From: Methylobacterium sp. | GTDB taxonomy: Bacteria; Pseudomonadota; Alphaproteobacteria; Rhizobiales; Beijerinckiaceae | NCBI GenBank assembly: GCA_013823325.1 | Contig: PNLY01000006.1 | Span: forward strand, 1-64,000 | Length of the DNA stretch: 64,000 nt | Reading direction: 5' to 3' | In this document: piece by piece, positions 36,880-41,656 of the stretch | How the letters are laid out: each line of letters opens with the position of its first letter | Numbering within the stretch: position 1 is the stretch's first letter | The notes under the pieces: generated by a model | Seen by the model: only the letters and a program-made list of their open reading frames with translations | What the model was told of the DNA's origin: nothing | Databases searched by the model: none | Program-made: the position numbers and the translations under genes

Positions 36880-37389
36880 TCAGGCCCGCGCGAGATTGGC
36901 CGAGAGTTCCGGCTTCACGTTCAGCGTCTGGAAGACGACGCAATAGCGCTCAGTCAGCTTGAGCAACGTGTCGAGCTTCTCCTGCGGCGCGTCGGTCTCG
37001 ACGTCGAAGGAAAGGCGGATCGCCTTGAAGCCGACGGCAGCGTCTTTGGCGACGCCGAGCGTGCCGCGGAAATCGAGATCGCCCTCGGCCCGGACGGTGC
37101 CCTTCTTAAGCTCGATCTCGAGCGCGGTCGCGACCGCCTTCAGTGTGACGCCGGCGCAGGCGACCAGCGCCTCGAGCAGCATGTCGCCGGAGCAGAGCTC
37201 GGCGCCGGAGCCGCCGGTCGCCGGGTGCAGGCCGGCGAGCGCGATCGCCCGGCCGGTCTCGACCTTGCAGGCGATGTGCTGGTCGTCGAGCTCGCCCTTG
37301 GCCTTCAGCGTGATCACCGCCGCATCGGGCGCCTCACGATACTTGTCCTTGAGCGGGGCCTGCAAAGCGCGCAGCGCGGTGACGTCCAT
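36880..37389 (-). CDS. OsmC-family protein
   Basis: A 169-residue OsmC/Ohr-fold protein. The two typical redox cysteines are in ALVACAGVTLKAVA and in ERYCVVFQTLN, so peroxidase activity is plausible. It carries an extra cysteine in ELCSGDMLLEA. It is the last gene of the transcription unit led by the upstream SAM-II riboswitch and the degenerate ABC ATPase (45-bp gap), which links it to sulfur metabolism by context only. Confidence 0.9.
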   Translation of the reverse strand: MDVTALRALQAPLKDKYREAPDAAVITLKAKGELDDQHIACKVETGRAIALAGLHPATGGSGAELCSGDMLLEALVACAGVTLKAVATALEIELKKGTVRAEGDLDFRGTLGVAKDAAVGFKAIRLSFDVETDAPQEKLDTLLKLTERYCVVFQTLNVKPELSANLARA

Positions 37390-37434: not shown

Positions 37435-38145
37435 TCAGGCCGCCGCCTCCACCTCCGGCGCGACATGCCGGCTTTCCTTGTCGAGCGCCCGGCGCAATTC
37501 GCGGCGCAGCGCGACGAAGCCGACCGAGCCCTCCTCGCGCGGACGGGCGAGCAGATTGTCGAGGCTGAAGGCGACCGGGCCCGGCTGCTGTGGCACGACG
37601 AGGATGCGGTCGGCGAGTCGCACGGCGTCCTCGACCGAACCGGTGGACATGACCACGGCCGGGCGTCCCTGCGTACAGAGTTCCGGCAGGAAGGCGGCGA
37701 GCCGCTGGCGCGCCTGCGCATCCAGCGCGGCGAAGGGTTCGTCGATCAGCAGCAGGCGCGGCCTGACCAGCAGCAGGCGGGCGATGGCAAGTCGCAGCAG
37801 CTCTTCCGGCAAGAGCGTCCCGGGCCGCTGCGTCGCCTGCGCGGCAAGGCCGACGCGGACCAGCACATTGGTGATCAGACCCTCGCGCTCGAAGGGTGTG
37901 GCTTTGGGCAAGGCAAAGGCGAGGTTCTCGGTGAGATCGAGCCAGGGGAAGAAGCGCGGCCGGGCACAGAGCAGGCCGATCCCGGCAGTCGGCACCGTTC
38001 CTTCGCCAGCCCTCAGGCCGGCGAACCCACGCAGTGCCACCGCGCGCACCTCGGGAGTGCCGAGTACCGCGACGACCTCGCCCGCAGCGGGACGTGACAG
38101 GGCGTGATCGTGAGAACGGGGAAGATCGTGAAGATCGGCCGACAT
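37435..38145 (-). CDS. Degenerate ABC transporter ATPase (non-canonical NBD, nitrate/sulfonate/taurine type)
   Basis: A 236-residue ABC ATPase homologue that aligns along its length with the intact ATPase at 38889-39671 but has lost the nucleotide-binding motifs. In place of Walker A GGSGCGKTT it has GTPEVRAVA; the Q-loop VIFQEPRLLPWL became LLCARPRFFPWL; the signature LSGGQ became LLPEE; the switch His region VTHDVEEA became MSTGSVEDA. Walker B (LLLIDEPFAALDA) remains. About 15 residues of the antiparallel sheet after Walker A are missing. ATG 38145 has GGAG seven bases upstream. A SAM-II riboswitch and promoter lie directly upstream. The intact frame and conserved Walker B argue for a selected, non-hydrolysing partner. 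Confidence 0.85.
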   Translation of the reverse strand: MSADLHDLPRSHDHALSRPAAGEVVAVLGTPEVRAVALRGFAGLRAGEGTVPTAGIGLLCARPRFFPWLDLTENLAFALPKATPFEREGLITNVLVRVGLAAQATQRPGTLLPEELLRLAIARLLLVRPRLLLIDEPFAALDAQARQRLAAFLPELCTQGRPAVVMSTGSVEDAVRLADRILVVPQQPGPVAFSLDNLLARPREEGSVGFVALRRELRRALDKESRHVAPEVEAAA

Positions 38146-38210
38146 AACTGGCTCCATCCATAGACAAGGCGGAAGGAGCGCCAACGGCCTTGAGGCCATC
38201 CCGTCGTCCC

Positions 38211-38267
38211 GCGCTTTAGCTGCATTTGTTTCGCGCCCGCAAGCTGAGGCTCAAATCGGCGCGTGTC
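38211..38267 (-). promoter_or_regulatory. SAM-II riboswitch (copy A), leader of the degenerate ABC ATPase gene
   Basis: Read on the minus strand the RNA goes ACGCGCCGATTTGAGCC, then AGCTTGCGGGCGCG, then AAACAAATGCAGCTAAAGCG. This reproduces the SAM-II (SAM-alpha, metA motif) plan: stem CGCGCC pairing with GGGCGCG, the GATTTGA loop strand, and the AATGCAGCTAAA pseudoknot strand. It is nearly identical to copy B at 41566. It binds S-adenosylmethionine and should repress when SAM is plentiful. A small GGCC-CAA-GGCC-type hairpin and a GCTCC/GGAGC pairing around the Shine-Dalgarno follow it. Confidence 0.88.
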
Positions 38268-38270
38268 CTT

Positions 38271-38299
38271 TCATAAGGTCTGAGCGTCCGTTTTGTCAA
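38271..38299 (-). promoter_or_regulatory. Sigma-70-type promoter of the riboswitch A unit
   Basis: On the minus strand: -35 TTGACA (38299-38294), 17-bp spacer, -10 TTATGA (38276-38271). Transcription would start at about 38264, so the aptamer begins at the very 5-prime end of the RNA. The promoter overlaps the last codons of the GNAT gene, whose TGA stop is part of the -10. Confidence 0.75.
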
Positions 38300-38858
38300 A
38301 CGGTCGATCAAGCTCGGCGAAGTCGTTCTGGGCGAGCCGGTACCGGCATTGCAGGATCGTCTCGCCGCGTGAGCGCGACGGACGCTCGACCTGGTCGAGC
38401 AAGCGGAAACCCAGTCTCTGCAGCACCCGGCCCGAAGCCACATTGTCCGCGGCATGGCCGGAACGGAGGGACTGGAGCCCGGCCTCGGCGAACGCGAACC
38501 GCACCACGGCCGTCGCGGCCTCAGCGGCGAAGCCTTGCCCCCAAGCCGCCTGCTCGAACCAATAGCCGATCTCCCCCTCGCCATCGGCGATCTCATCGAG
38601 ATCGGCGAGCCCGATCATCCGGCCGTCCCAAAAAGCTGCAAAGCGGTAGGCCTCCCCGGTCGCCCATTCGCGCGGATGATCGGCGAACCAGGCTTCGATC
38701 TCGGTGCGATCAGGCGGGAAGGAGGCCATCCGCAGCATCCGCGTGACGGCCCAGTCGGACTGGATCTCGAAGGCGCGCTGCGCATCCGCTGCAGACGAGG
38801 GCCGCAAGACGAGCCTCATCGTCGAAATCGGAGCGCGGGGGATGGTAGAAATTGTCAT
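38271..38858 (-). CDS. GNAT-family N-acetyltransferase (RimJ/RimL-like)
   Basis: A 195-residue GNAT protein of the RimJ/RimL type: RLVLRPSSAADAQRAFEIQ at the start, GEIGYWFEQAAWGQGFAAEA (acetyl-CoA pyrophosphate-binding region) and ADNVASGRVLQRLGF near residue 135. The substrate is unknown. It lies 30 bp after the ATPase gene and is probably the last gene of the riboswitch B transcript. Its C-terminal codons double as the promoter of the next unit. ATG 38819 is a possible shorter start. Confidence 0.88.
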   Translation of the reverse strand: MTISTIPRAPISTMRLVLRPSSAADAQRAFEIQSDWAVTRMLRMASFPPDRTEIEAWFADHPREWATGEAYRFAAFWDGRMIGLADLDEIADGEGEIGYWFEQAAWGQGFAAEAATAVVRFAFAEAGLQSLRSGHAADNVASGRVLQRLGFRLLDQVERPSRSRGETILQCRYRLAQNDFAELDRPFDKTDAQTL

Positions 38859-38888
38859 TGCCGCGAGATTGGCACTGCAAAATGACGA

Positions 38889-39671
38889 CTACCACCACAT
38901 CCCGGCGCTCTCGGCCGCCTTGTGCTGGCGCGGCTCGCTGTCGGTGAGCGAGCGATCCAGCGTGCGCAGCGCCTCGCGCTTGGTCGCCTCGAAGGCGGGC
39001 GAGAGCCGGTCGCGCGGGCGGGTCAGCGGATTGTCGAGCTCGTCAAAGATGCGGCCGGGCCTGGGCTGCATCACGACGATGCGGTCGGCCAGCTTCACCG
39101 CTTCCTCGACATCGTGGGTGACCATTACCACGGTCGGCCGGCTCTCCTCCCAGAGCGCGAGGAGATGGCCGTGCAGGCTGGCGCGCGTCGTCGCGTCGAG
39201 GGCCGAGAAAGGCTCGTCCATCAAGAGGAGTTTTGGCCGGGTCACGAGCGCGCGGGCGATGGCGACACGCTGCTGCTGGCCGCCGGAGAGCTCGCGCGGC
39301 CAGCGCGCCTCGTAGCCGGCGAGACCGACGCGGGCGAGCGCGCCAGTGACGAGACGGGAGCGCTCCGCTGCCGGCAGATGACTGAGGCCGAAGCCGGCAT
39401 TGTCGGCGACGGAGAGCCAGGGCAGCAAACGCGGCTCCTGGAAGATCACGCCGACATCGGCGCGCGGCTCGGTGATCGCGGCCTCGTCGAGCAGGATGCG
39501 CCCCTCGCTCGGCCGGTCGAGCCCCGCGACGAGGCGCAATAGCGTGGTCTTGCCGCAGCCGGAGCCGCCGACCAGCGCCAGGATCTCGCCGGCGGCGACG
39601 GAGATGTCGATGCCTGACAGGGCACGGGTGCCGTCGGCATAGGTCTTGGAGAGCTGGTCGAAGGTCAGCAT
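38889..39671 (-). CDS. ABC transporter ATP-binding protein, nitrate/sulfonate/taurine type (intact)
   Basis: A 260-residue importer ATPase with all motifs: Walker A GGSGCGKT (residues 35-42), Q-loop Gln78 in VIFQEPRLLPWL, signature LSGGQ (128-132), Walker B LLLMDEP and switch His186 in VTHDVEEA. It belongs to the SsuB/TauB/NrtD group. It is seven bases after the permease gene and is the paralogue from which the degenerate ATPase at 37435-38145 probably arose. Confidence 0.92.
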   Translation of the reverse strand: MLTFDQLSKTYADGTRALSGIDISVAAGEILALVGGSGCGKTTLLRLVAGLDRPSEGRILLDEAAITEPRADVGVIFQEPRLLPWLSVADNAGFGLSHLPAAERSRLVTGALARVGLAGYEARWPRELSGGQQQRVAIARALVTRPKLLLMDEPFSALDATTRASLHGHLLALWEESRPTVVMVTHDVEEAVKLADRIVVMQPRPGRIFDELDNPLTRPRDRLSPAFEATKREALRTLDRSLTDSEPRQHKAAESAGMWW

Positions 39672-39678
39672 CGCGCCC

Positions 39679-40512
39679 TCAGAGCCTGTCCCTGGCGGTG
39701 TCCTGCCAGGCGAGGAAGGGGCGGGTCAGCGCGAGCAGGAGGCCATCGGCGAACTTGCCGAGCACGGCGAAGGCGATGATCGCGGCAATGATGGTGTCGG
39801 GTCGGCCGAGCTGCTGGCCATCGACCAGGAGATAGCCGAGGCCCTCGCTCGCGCCCATGATCTCGGCAGCGACGACGAACATGAAGCCGAGCCCGAGCCC
39901 ACCACGCAATGCCGTGAACCAGTCGGGCAGGATCGCCGGCAAGAGCACGCGCCGGACCATGGCGAGTTTGCCGAGGCGGAAGACGCGGCCGACCTCGACG
40001 ATCTTGCGGTCGATCGAGAGGATCGCGGCGGCGACGCCGAGATAGACCGGGAAGAAGACGCCGACCGCGATAAGCGCCACTTTCGAGGCCTCGAAGATGC
40101 CGAACCAGAGGATGAAGAGCGGCACCCAGGCGATCGAGGGGATGGCGCGCAATGCCTGCAAAGTCGGGTCGAGCAGGCCGCGCGCCAACGGCAGCGCACC
40201 GGTCAGGGCCCCGAGCGCGGTACCGACGGCGGCGCCGATGCCGAAGCCGGCAGCGACGCGCCAAAGCGTCGCCGCGGCATGGGTCCAAAGCTCGCCGCTG
40301 ACCGCGAGCTGCCAGAGCGTCTTGCCGACCACGCTGGGCGGCGGCATCAGCCGGCCATTGGCGAGGCCGGCCCGAACGAGGATTTCCCAGAGAACCGCGA
40401 GGATAACGGGGAGCAGGAAGCCGGCTAGGCGCAGGCCTGCGCGCGAAGCCGGTCGCGCTTGCGGTGCGACCGGCTTCTCGTCAACGGCTTCTGCGATCTC
40501 GATCGTGCTCAT
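39679..40512 (-). CDS. ABC transporter permease, nitrate/sulfonate/taurine type
   Basis: A 277-residue BPD-type permease with about six membrane helices. The ATPase-contacting EAA loop is in FRLGKLAMVRRVLLPAILPD, and IPSIAWVPLFILWFGIFEAS is a signature of the SsuC/TauC/NrtB group. An N-terminal cytoplasmic stretch of about 25 residues precedes the first helix. It lies between the binding-protein and ATPase genes with gaps of 20 and 7 bp. Confidence 0.92.
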   Translation of the reverse strand: MSTIEIAEAVDEKPVAPQARPASRAGLRLAGFLLPVILAVLWEILVRAGLANGRLMPPPSVVGKTLWQLAVSGELWTHAAATLWRVAAGFGIGAAVGTALGALTGALPLARGLLDPTLQALRAIPSIAWVPLFILWFGIFEASKVALIAVGVFFPVYLGVAAAILSIDRKIVEVGRVFRLGKLAMVRRVLLPAILPDWFTALRGGLGLGFMFVVAAEIMGASEGLGYLLVDGQQLGRPDTIIAAIIAFAVLGKFADGLLLALTRPFLAWQDTARDRL

Positions 40513-40532
40513 CTGCCCGCGATCATGACCGC

Positions 40533-41507
40533 TCAGTTGGTCGCGGCAAAGCGCTTGTCGATCAGCGCGTCGACTGAGGCCCTGACGTCGGCATTGGCGG
40601 GCAGGACGCCTGCCTGCTGCAAGGCGAGGCCCGCGGCCAGGATCGTCTCGGCCTGGGCCGGGCCGATCGTGCTGTGGGTCAGCTCGGTACGGGTGAGCTG
40701 GCGCTCGATCACCGCGTCGGAGAGCTTGGTCGCCTCGACCAGCGCCTTCCTGACCTCGGCCGGGTTGGCGAGCGCGATGGCACGCGCTTCCTCATAGGCC
40801 TTGAGCACCTTGCGGACGAGATCCGGGTTCTTCTCGGCGAACTCCTCGCGGACATTGAGGACGCCCCAGGTGTTGTCGGCGGCTTTGCGGTGGAAGAGCT
40901 TGGCCCCGGCCTCGACCTCGGCGGCGGCCATCATCGGATCGAGGCCGGCCCAGGCCTCGACATCGCCGCGCTCCAAGGCAAGACGGCCGTCGGCATGCTG
41001 CAGCAGCACGAGCTTGACATCCTTCTCGGTCAGGCCGGCCTCGGCGAGCGAGCGGACCAGGAAGATGTGCGGATCGGTGCCACGGGTCACCGCGACGCGC
41101 TTGCCCTTGAGGTCGGCGACCTTGGTCACCTCGCTCTTGCCGCCGGTGACCAGCGCCGTCCATTCCGGCCGCGAATAGACATAGATCGACTTGATCGGGT
41201 TGCCGTTGATCCTGGCGATCAGCGCGGCGGCACCGGCGGTCGAGCCGAAATCGAGCGAGCCGGCATTGAGGAATTCGAGCGCCTTGTTCGAGCCGGCCGA
41301 GAACACCCACCGCACTTTGATGCCGTCGGCCGCGAGCGCCTTCTCGAGGATGCCGCGGTCCTTCAGGACAAGGCTGACAGGGTTGTAGGTGGCGTAGTCG
41401 ACGCGGATCTCCTTCGGCGCCTGCGCCTGGGCGCTGCCAAAGACTAACGAGGCCGCAGCGAAGCCGGCGAGCACGGCGCGGCGGGTCGGAAATGAGATGA
41501 TCGGCAT
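40533..41507 (-). CDS. ABC transporter substrate-binding protein, aliphatic sulfonate-like
   Basis: A 324-residue periplasmic binding protein with a twin-arginine-type signal peptide (FPTRRAVLAGFAAASLVFG). The SsuA/TauA-like core shows GIKVRWVFSAGSNKALEFLN, GSLDFGSTAGAAALIARING, LKGKRVAVTRGTDPHIFLVR and LERGDVEAWAGLDPMMAAAE. It is the first gene after SAM-II riboswitch B, so the ligand is probably a sulfur compound or methionine precursor. That assignment rests on regulation plus family, not on binding-site residues. Confidence 0.9.
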   Translation of the reverse strand: MPIISFPTRRAVLAGFAAASLVFGSAQAQAPKEIRVDYATYNPVSLVLKDRGILEKALAADGIKVRWVFSAGSNKALEFLNAGSLDFGSTAGAAALIARINGNPIKSIYVYSRPEWTALVTGGKSEVTKVADLKGKRVAVTRGTDPHIFLVRSLAEAGLTEKDVKLVLLQHADGRLALERGDVEAWAGLDPMMAAAEVEAGAKLFHRKAADNTWGVLNVREEFAEKNPDLVRKVLKAYEEARAIALANPAEVRKALVEATKLSDAVIERQLTRTELTHSTIGPAQAETILAAGLALQQAGVLPANADVRASVDALIDKRFAATN

Positions 41508-41514
41508 GGCGTTC

Positions 41515-41540
41515 CCCTTCGGTCCATCTTGCGCGAAGGG
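41515..41540 (-). promoter_or_regulatory. Hairpin masking the Shine-Dalgarno of the riboswitch B binding-protein gene
   Basis: On the minus strand CCCTTCG pairs with CGAAGGG across a 12-base loop. The 3-prime arm contains the AAGGGG ribosome-binding sequence six bases before the ATG at 41507. A second hairpin GGAGGC/GCCTCC (41543-41559) lies between it and the aptamer. Together they look like a translational expression platform. Confidence 0.55.
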
Positions 41541-41565
41541 ATGGAGGCTGTTCGCCTCCGGCGCC

Positions 41566-41625
41566 CCCGCTTTAGCTGCACTTGTTTCGCGCCCGCAAGC
41601 TGCTGGCTCAAATCGGCGCGTGTCC
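41566..41625 (-). promoter_or_regulatory. SAM-II riboswitch (copy B), leader of the sulfonate-type ABC importer operon
   Basis: The minus-strand RNA has GGACACGCGCCGATTTGAGC, then AGCTTGCGGGCGCGAAACAA, then GTGCAGCTAAAGCGGG. It contains the SAM-II stem CGCGCC/GGGCGCG and the TGCAGCTAAA pseudoknot strand. Copy A differs only at the linker before AGCTTGC and at one base before TGCAGC within the core. It sits 58 bp upstream of the binding-protein ATG. Confidence 0.9.
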
Positions 41626-41627
41626 GA

Positions 41628-41656
41628 TTGTTAGGTTCGATCGTTCTCTTTGTCAA
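41628..41656 (-). promoter_or_regulatory. Sigma-70-type promoter of the riboswitch B operon
   Basis: On the minus strand: -35 TTGACA (41656-41651), 17-bp spacer, -10 TAACAA (41633-41628). The geometry matches that upstream of riboswitch A, and the aptamer starts about six bases after the -10. glnD is divergent from it. Confidence 0.7.

Follow-up and report, generated by a model that had tools for sequence, protein, structure and literature searches.

Two near-identical leader sequences lie on the minus strand of a 64,000-nucleotide stretch of Methylobacterium sp. DNA (assembly GCA_013823325.1, contig PNLY01000006.1, positions 1 to 64,000; hereafter the window), one ahead of the genes of an ATP-binding cassette (ABC) importer (leader 1) and the other ahead of an ABC ATPase gene with a degenerate nucleotide site (leader 2). 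The locus raises the question of what these leaders sense, how they would act on the genes behind them and what a dead ATPase does with a sensor of its own. We consider it highly probable that both are SAM-II riboswitches, responding to S-adenosylmethionine (SAM), each with its own promoter, and that they exert translational OFF control over the importer and over the dead ATPase together with an OsmC-like protein, the second unit having arisen once in the genus and its ATPase most likely being non-catalytic.

The initial annotation had described the leaders as near-identical twins, and all three sequence blocks common to both were indeed found in each, on the minus strand. The Rfam family RF00521 (SAM_alpha, SAM-II) was the top match to both at full model length, covering 41551-41629 for leader 1 (32.2 bits, E 6.4e-6) and 38198-38272 for leader 2 (29.2 bits, E 3.8e-5) in scans of about 200 bases. 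In a whole-genome scan the E-values were 4.5e-5 and 3.0e-4, respectively, and only three RF00521 matches with E < 1 were present genome-wide, namely the two leaders and a copy on contig C108 (29.0 bits). The GAUUUG, CUUGC and GCUAAA core of both leaders aligned to the Rfam consensus, with GATTTG, GCTTGC and GCTAAAG unaltered in both. A model (R2), built from 79 distinct aptamers that include both window leaders and hence, in contrast to RF00521, not independent of them, scored leader 2 at 75.4 bits and leader 1 at 70.7 bits, the top matches in the window, the next being 8.4 bits. SAM-V, SAM-SAH and S-adenosylhomocysteine (SAH) riboswitch identities were rejected, as the family models matched neither leader up to E = 10, and the SAM-SAH and SAH models had no match in the genome at E ≤ 1.

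Relatives of the leaders were collected by a pattern scan of named genomes, which returned at least 117 stretches, of which 80 loci were taken (alpha-, beta- and gammaproteobacteria and a few others). The search pattern of this set (class B) fixes parts of the core, and the set is no gauge of the conservation of those parts or of the spread of the RNA. Across 79 aptamers the P1 stem was paired in 93.8% of cells and covaried, with 48 cells changed on both sides compared to 13.3 in shuffles (0 of 500 shuffles as high). The second outer pair of the pseudoknot was standard in 80% of these aptamers compared to 46% when shuffled (0 of 2000 as high); the pairs beyond it had no support in the 79 aptamers, and the inner part was invariant but imposed by the search pattern. 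The genes downstream, assigned by eye, included metZ, metX, metK, metH, homoserine dehydrogenase, SsuA-family and MetN-like genes. NCBIfam models run on ten hand-chosen downstream proteins (eight from the class-B set, two from C108) returned the same kinds, with metZ as O-succinylhomoserine sulfhydrylase and the MetN-like ATPase scoring below the MetN cut-off. R2 also recovered all four canonical SAM-II loci given to it (18.2-25.1 bits) and scored 36.9 bits on a sister type at contig C108. In one genome (G595) a strong and a weak R2 match were found approximately 130-170 bases apart on the same strand, and this occurred twice (C5:8562-8801 and C38:31656-31855), a possible case of tandem aptamers.

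Taken together, the Rfam E-values, covariation, core and gene context support the assignment of both leaders to the SAM-II type, from which we infer that both aptamers bind SAM. The earlier remark that SAM-II usually precedes metA/metX-type genes agrees with PMC1273637 and PMC4239095. A descent from SAM-II with a changed ligand or lost binding would accord with RF00521 scores under the cut-off and with the weak outer pseudoknot of the window copies. Against this, the three core motifs are intact in both leaders and their relatives precede methionine and SAM genes, and we regard such a change as very improbable.

The sensors are thus ordinary in kind, yet largely missed by Rfam. When 18 of the 80 pattern loci were scanned at gathering thresholds, three passed RF00521, two passed RF02424 and 13 passed nothing. 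In 200 Pseudomonadota genomes R2 (E ≤ 1e-6) matched 21 places in 17 genomes, and at these RF00521 was over its cut-off in seven, below it in eight and without a match at E ≤ 0.001 in six; RF00521 alone gave matches in 36 genomes, 31 of them above cut-off. Because the matches of the two models overlap, canonical SAM-II and the present type grade into each other. RF00521 as published therefore misses or under-scores a widespread SAM-II subtype. A profile-based survey from 2014 found SAM_alpha in Rhizobiales and Rhodobacterales alone, and separately described a novel metXZ element in betaproteobacteria (PMC4239095). Uniting these RNAs would extend SAM-II control to organosulfur import. Judged by titles and the openings of abstracts, a literature search listed no description of SAM-II on a sulfonate importer; one listed paper, on Pelagibacter (PMC5069961), mentions both.

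Each leader had been credited with its own promoter, consisting of TTGACA and a -10-like box separated by 17 bases. TTGACA was present at 41651-41656 with TAACAA at 41628-41633 (leader 1) and at 38294-38299 with TTATGA at 38271-38276 (leader 2). The hexamer and its distance to the aptamer stood up to comparison with relatives. Both -10 boxes were weak, and a generic sigma-70 scan found the leader 1 promoter, with an 18-base spacer, but none for leader 2. The leader 2 promoter overlaps the GNAT gene, whose stop codon overlaps the -10 box. Accepting five of six bases or better, the start of TTGACA lay 37-39 bases ahead of GCGCCGATTTG in all but one of 64 distinct genus leaders and in all but one of 11 further alphaproteobacterial importer leaders; among pattern-locus leaders it lay 35-39 bases ahead in 36 of 49. 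These sets overlap in part. In a control stretch 300 bases further up, any TTGACA-like box was found in only 7, 0 and 9 leaders of the three sets, respectively.

Among the 63 genus leaders one carried a terminator-like site (1.2 expected), as did one of the 17 other importer-type leaders (0.5 expected), compared to 24 of the 69 remaining class-B leaders (2.3 expected). In both window leaders the Shine-Dalgarno sequence of the next gene is buried in a hairpin. In leader 1 it was unpaired with a probability of 0.097 compared to 0.429 in shuffles, and in leader 2 with 0.006 compared to 0.377. Over importer-type leaders the mean was 0.096 compared to 0.363 with the upstream part shuffled, and 46 of 62 such leaders ranked in the bottom decile of their shuffled versions; window leader 2 was outside this set, and outside a further set of 67 leaders, and was folded separately against 200 shuffles. 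The lack of terminators and the burial of the Shine-Dalgarno sequence make translational OFF control of both window leaders likely. The alternative that control acts on transcription by termination, perhaps Rho-dependent, with the hairpin secondary, draws on the sites in 24 of 69 class-B leaders and on termination having been predicted for many SAM-II RNAs (PMC2258182), but within the genus such sites stand at chance level, and we consider it improbable.

The aptamer, the promoter position, the Shine-Dalgarno hairpin, the missing terminators and the gene content are read directly from the sequence, and with them we infer the following course under translational control, the switching step being taken by analogy from the SAM-II family. 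Each riboswitch would be the first feature transcribed after its own promoter. At high SAM levels the aptamer would bind it and close, forming P1 and the pseudoknot that pairs UUGC with GC-U-AA; the Shine-Dalgarno sequence of the next gene would remain in the downstream hairpin, keeping translation low. When SAM falls the hairpin would open, and the importer (leader 1) and the dead ATPase with the OsmC-like protein (leader 2) would be made.

Several results weigh against this explanation. An Rfam scan of the window at gathering thresholds gave no match, and the RF00521 gathering score is 36 bits, so both leaders lie below it. This score is a library threshold and no biological feature, but because of it we file the leaders as SAM-II type rather than as RF00521 hits. 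The initial annotation's SAM-II plan, and the covariance-model scan proposed along with it, thus held for significance, full-length alignment, covariation, core and gene context, but fell short of the curated cut-off. Both window leaders also carry a mismatch (G-G, U-C) at the sole pseudoknot pair that covaries among the 79 aptamers. The window hairpins, taken alone, are only modestly unusual, with 9 of 200 shuffles (leader 1) and 17 of 200 (leader 2) equally low, and the leaders behind the counts are related and hence not independent. In equilibrium folding of 67 leaders the median unpaired probability of the Shine-Dalgarno sequence was 0.10 with the aptamer constraint and 0.08 without; as the sequence stays paired in both states, this folding shows no switch. 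Finally, GCGnGGG after the core, which by eye could act in many leaders as an anti-anti-Shine-Dalgarno against CCCnCGC, did no better than controls. The helix had a mean of -12.8 kcal/mol in matched leaders and -13.65 when swapped (p 1.0 for matched being stronger), and against dinucleotide shuffles the mean z was -0.13 and 2 of 66 leaders reached the lowest 5%; this test took window leader 2 with a different start codon.

A second candidate, the 3' strand of P1 as partner of the anti-Shine-Dalgarno arm, was likewise seen by eye and was unsupported by equilibrium folding.

The importer behind leader 1 had been called sulfonate/taurine-type, and its proteins bear this out. The substrate-binding protein passed the SsuA_fam cut-off, and the permease and ATPase had SsuC and taurine/sulfonate ATPases, respectively, as their best matches, each below the cut-offs of those families. 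R2 matched all 67 genomes of the genus; at least one strong class-B copy was present in 64 and two copies in 18. The arrangement was surveyed at 47 genus loci, one per genome and the window included. An importer with one riboswitch was found at 22 loci, an importer and a second riboswitch with the dead ATPase at 18, a riboswitch and dead ATPase with no importer at the locus at four, and a riboswitch and partly degenerate ATPase with no importer at the locus at three. An OsmC gene lay downstream in 46 of the 47, the remaining stretch being too short to show it. At the three last-named loci (L246-L248) the partly degenerate ATPase lies behind a single riboswitch, with OsmC, and L248 retains a GRDGSGKS Walker A; these loci may represent either a transitional state or a case that arose in parallel. 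Ten related alphaproteobacterial loci showed, by tblastn, the SsuA-, SsuB-like order behind the riboswitch, with a permease match at nine, OsmC at seven and GlnD alongside at nine.

The ATPase behind leader 2 had been reported as degenerate, and its Walker A, LSGGQ and H-loop histidine are missing. Walker A and LSGGQ were missing from all 22 orthologues, with a DEPF-type Walker B in 19. The predicted structure keeps the ABC ATPase fold (predicted local distance difference test score, pLDDT, 80.4; predicted template modelling score, pTM, 0.77) and has the CmpBCD and NrtBCD ATPases as its closest structural matches, with query TM-scores of 0.74-0.78 within the top nine. This points to a protein without a usable nucleotide site, most likely in a non-catalytic role, and its function would lie outside ATP hydrolysis. 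In a tree with long branches for the partly degenerate rows, the dead ATPases were monophyletic, twenty rows forming one group with 100/98 support, which fits a single origin of the second unit within the genus. The median ratio of nonsynonymous to synonymous substitution rates (dN/dS; pairwise Nei-Gojobori) was 0.29 over 23 rows (20 dead and three partly degenerate, some of which carry additional N-terminal codons) and 0.25 when restricted to pairs whose dS is under 0.8, compared to 0.19 for the intact importer ATPase (40 rows). By these values the dead ATPase is under purifying selection. The higher median than in the intact ATPase, and a frame split in one genome (L244), would suit a decaying pseudogene that happens to retain its leader. 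This we consider unlikely, as dN/dS is well under 1, the frame is intact in the other 21 of 22 orthologues (L245 seen in part), and leader, hairpin and OsmC are all kept.

Both CmpBCD and NrtBCD carry two different ATPase subunits (C, D), and the dead ATPase could similarly pair with the intact ATPase in an asymmetric importer. The nearness of its model to those ATPases and the shared locus and kind of leader at 18 of 47 loci speak for such a pairing, but the signature was lost along with Walker A, and four of the 47 loci keep the dead ATPase although they hold no importer genes (the search for importers covered these loci, not the rest of the genomes); we hold the pairing to be less likely than not. 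The same four loci, with the monophyly and the purifying selection, leave unproven the proposed role of the second unit in taking up sulfur or precursors, which the missing nucleotide-site motifs also fail to support. A non-catalytic protein under its own riboswitch thus remains our preferred explanation, an oddity that is unusually well kept.

The features of the locus are collected in Table 1. Of 18 two-unit loci, seven, the window included, have a GNAT gene between their units; this gene is probably not part of the system. The start of the dead ATPase was set at a conserved MSA, the longest open reading frame (ORF) starting at 38199. A tRNA scan of the window found none.

Table 1. Features of the two-leader locus, in window coordinates.
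Feature	Position	Strand	Basis
Leader 1 promoter: TTGACA, 17-base spacer, TAACAA	41628-41656	-	Read from sequence, scan, position conservation
SAM-II-like aptamer 1 (class B)	41558-41625	-	RF00521 32.2 bits, R2 70.7 bits
Hairpin burying Shine-Dalgarno AAGGGG (41514-41519) of substrate-binding protein gene	41514-41540	-	Folding compared to shuffles
SsuA-family substrate-binding protein	40533-41507	-	TIGR01728 (SsuA_fam) 222.8 bits, cut-off 163.5
ABC permease, SsuC-like	39679-40512	-	NF008470 183.4 bits, under cut-off 347; PF00528
ABC ATPase, SsuB/TauB-like, motifs intact (GGSGCGKT, LSGGQ, MDEPF)	38889-39671	-	Domain/family matches, motifs
GNAT acetyltransferase between the two units	38271-38858	-	PF13302
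Leader 2 promoter: TTGACA, 17-base spacer, TTATGA	38271-38299	-	Read from sequence, position conservation
SAM-II-like aptamer 2 (class B)	38202-38268	-	RF00521 29.2 bits, R2 75.4 bits
Hairpin burying Shine-Dalgarno GGAG (38152-38155) of dead ATPase gene	38150-38182	-	Folding compared to shuffles
Catalytically dead ABC ATPase (predicted)	37435-38145	-	Domain match, motifs, dN/dS, tree, predicted structure
OsmC-like protein, last gene of second unit	36880-37389	-	PF02566 65.4 bits

The sister type on contig C108 of the same genome (L010, 2603-2768) consists of a SAM-II-like aptamer (class C) followed by a short ORF, MNMTGSVLRPVEPLRRSMMCCCRR, ending MMCCCRR, with metN- and metQ-like genes approximately 500 bases past it. 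Among 397 genomes of the order, 25 matched the sister-type pattern. An ATG with a Shine-Dalgarno-like motif, opening an ORF of at most 45 codons, lay 28-61 bases past the aptamer in 29 of 41 distinct sister leaders, and cysteine was encoded in all 29, with at least two cysteines in 23. Cysteines made up 69 of 568 residues in frame, compared to 39 and 11 of 597 residues in the two alternative frames; this control is imperfect because 12 of the 41 leaders had no such ORF by the same rule and the +1 frame is cysteine-rich too. A literature search returned no recognisable description of SAM-II paired with a cysteine-rich leader ORF. We suggest, as a tentative idea and one more apt to fail than to hold, that one SAM-II lineage runs an uptake regulon in three formats: a translational switch controlling a sulfonate importer; that same switch ahead of a dead ATPase co-opted as a SAM-repressed regulator or assembly factor, outliving the importer in some species; and a sister aptamer before a cysteine-rich ORF upstream of metN/metQ-like genes. 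If so, the sister leader would read SAM and charged cysteine tRNA in series.

SAM-II was described as a SAM-binding RNA found near promoters and ahead of methionine genes (PMC1273637). The window leaders resemble it in P1, the core segments, the pseudoknot, a promoter few bases upstream and the methionine genes behind their relatives. They differ from SAM-II/RF00521 in scoring under the Rfam cut-off, in a short outer pseudoknot, in the importers controlled and in a Shine-Dalgarno sequence that sits in a separate hairpin 30-50 bases past the aptamer, outside the pseudoknot strand. The SAM-II riboswitch of Sinorhizobium meliloti metA controls translation at a distance, and like the window leaders has a translation start well downstream of the aptamer; its Shine-Dalgarno sequence, however, lies in the pseudoknot, whereas that of the window leaders lies beside the start codon in a hairpin of its own (PMC9373788).

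The metXZ element of betaproteobacteria was described upstream of metX and metZ with a pseudoknot of regions 1-4 and 2-6 and a terminator, and was reported as novel and not as SAM-II (PMC4239095). Class B similarly lies ahead of metZ in Methylophilales and ahead of metX in Gallionella relatives, and the metXZ element is probably the same RNA. Upstream of metX in Pandoraea terrigena (L305) and Paraburkholderia kururiensis (L306) we observed a SAM-II-like core that carries a long insert; this is probably the metXZ element as published. The R2 matches of these two leaders are weak (24.5 and 21.7 bits) and RF00521 gave no match at E ≤ 0.05, so their membership of SAM-II rests on shared core letters and position. 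RF02424 (Bp2_287) scored 196.9 and 112 bits on class-B loci in Burkholderia and Paraburkholderia. The authors who discovered it noted its position ahead of metZ/metX and proposed that it acts in cis (PMC3521395), whereas Rfam types it as a small RNA gene on the strand opposite the riboswitch. In both passing loci (L146, 6466-6639; L101, 4186-4383) it lies on the strand opposite the class-B aptamer, and for this reason the small RNA family looks like the antisense of this riboswitch. Among the proteins, the dead ATPase differs from its nearest solved folds, the NrtBCD and CmpBCD ATPases, in lacking Walker A, LSGGQ and the H-loop histidine, and the importer proteins are of the same family as SsuABC/TauABC.

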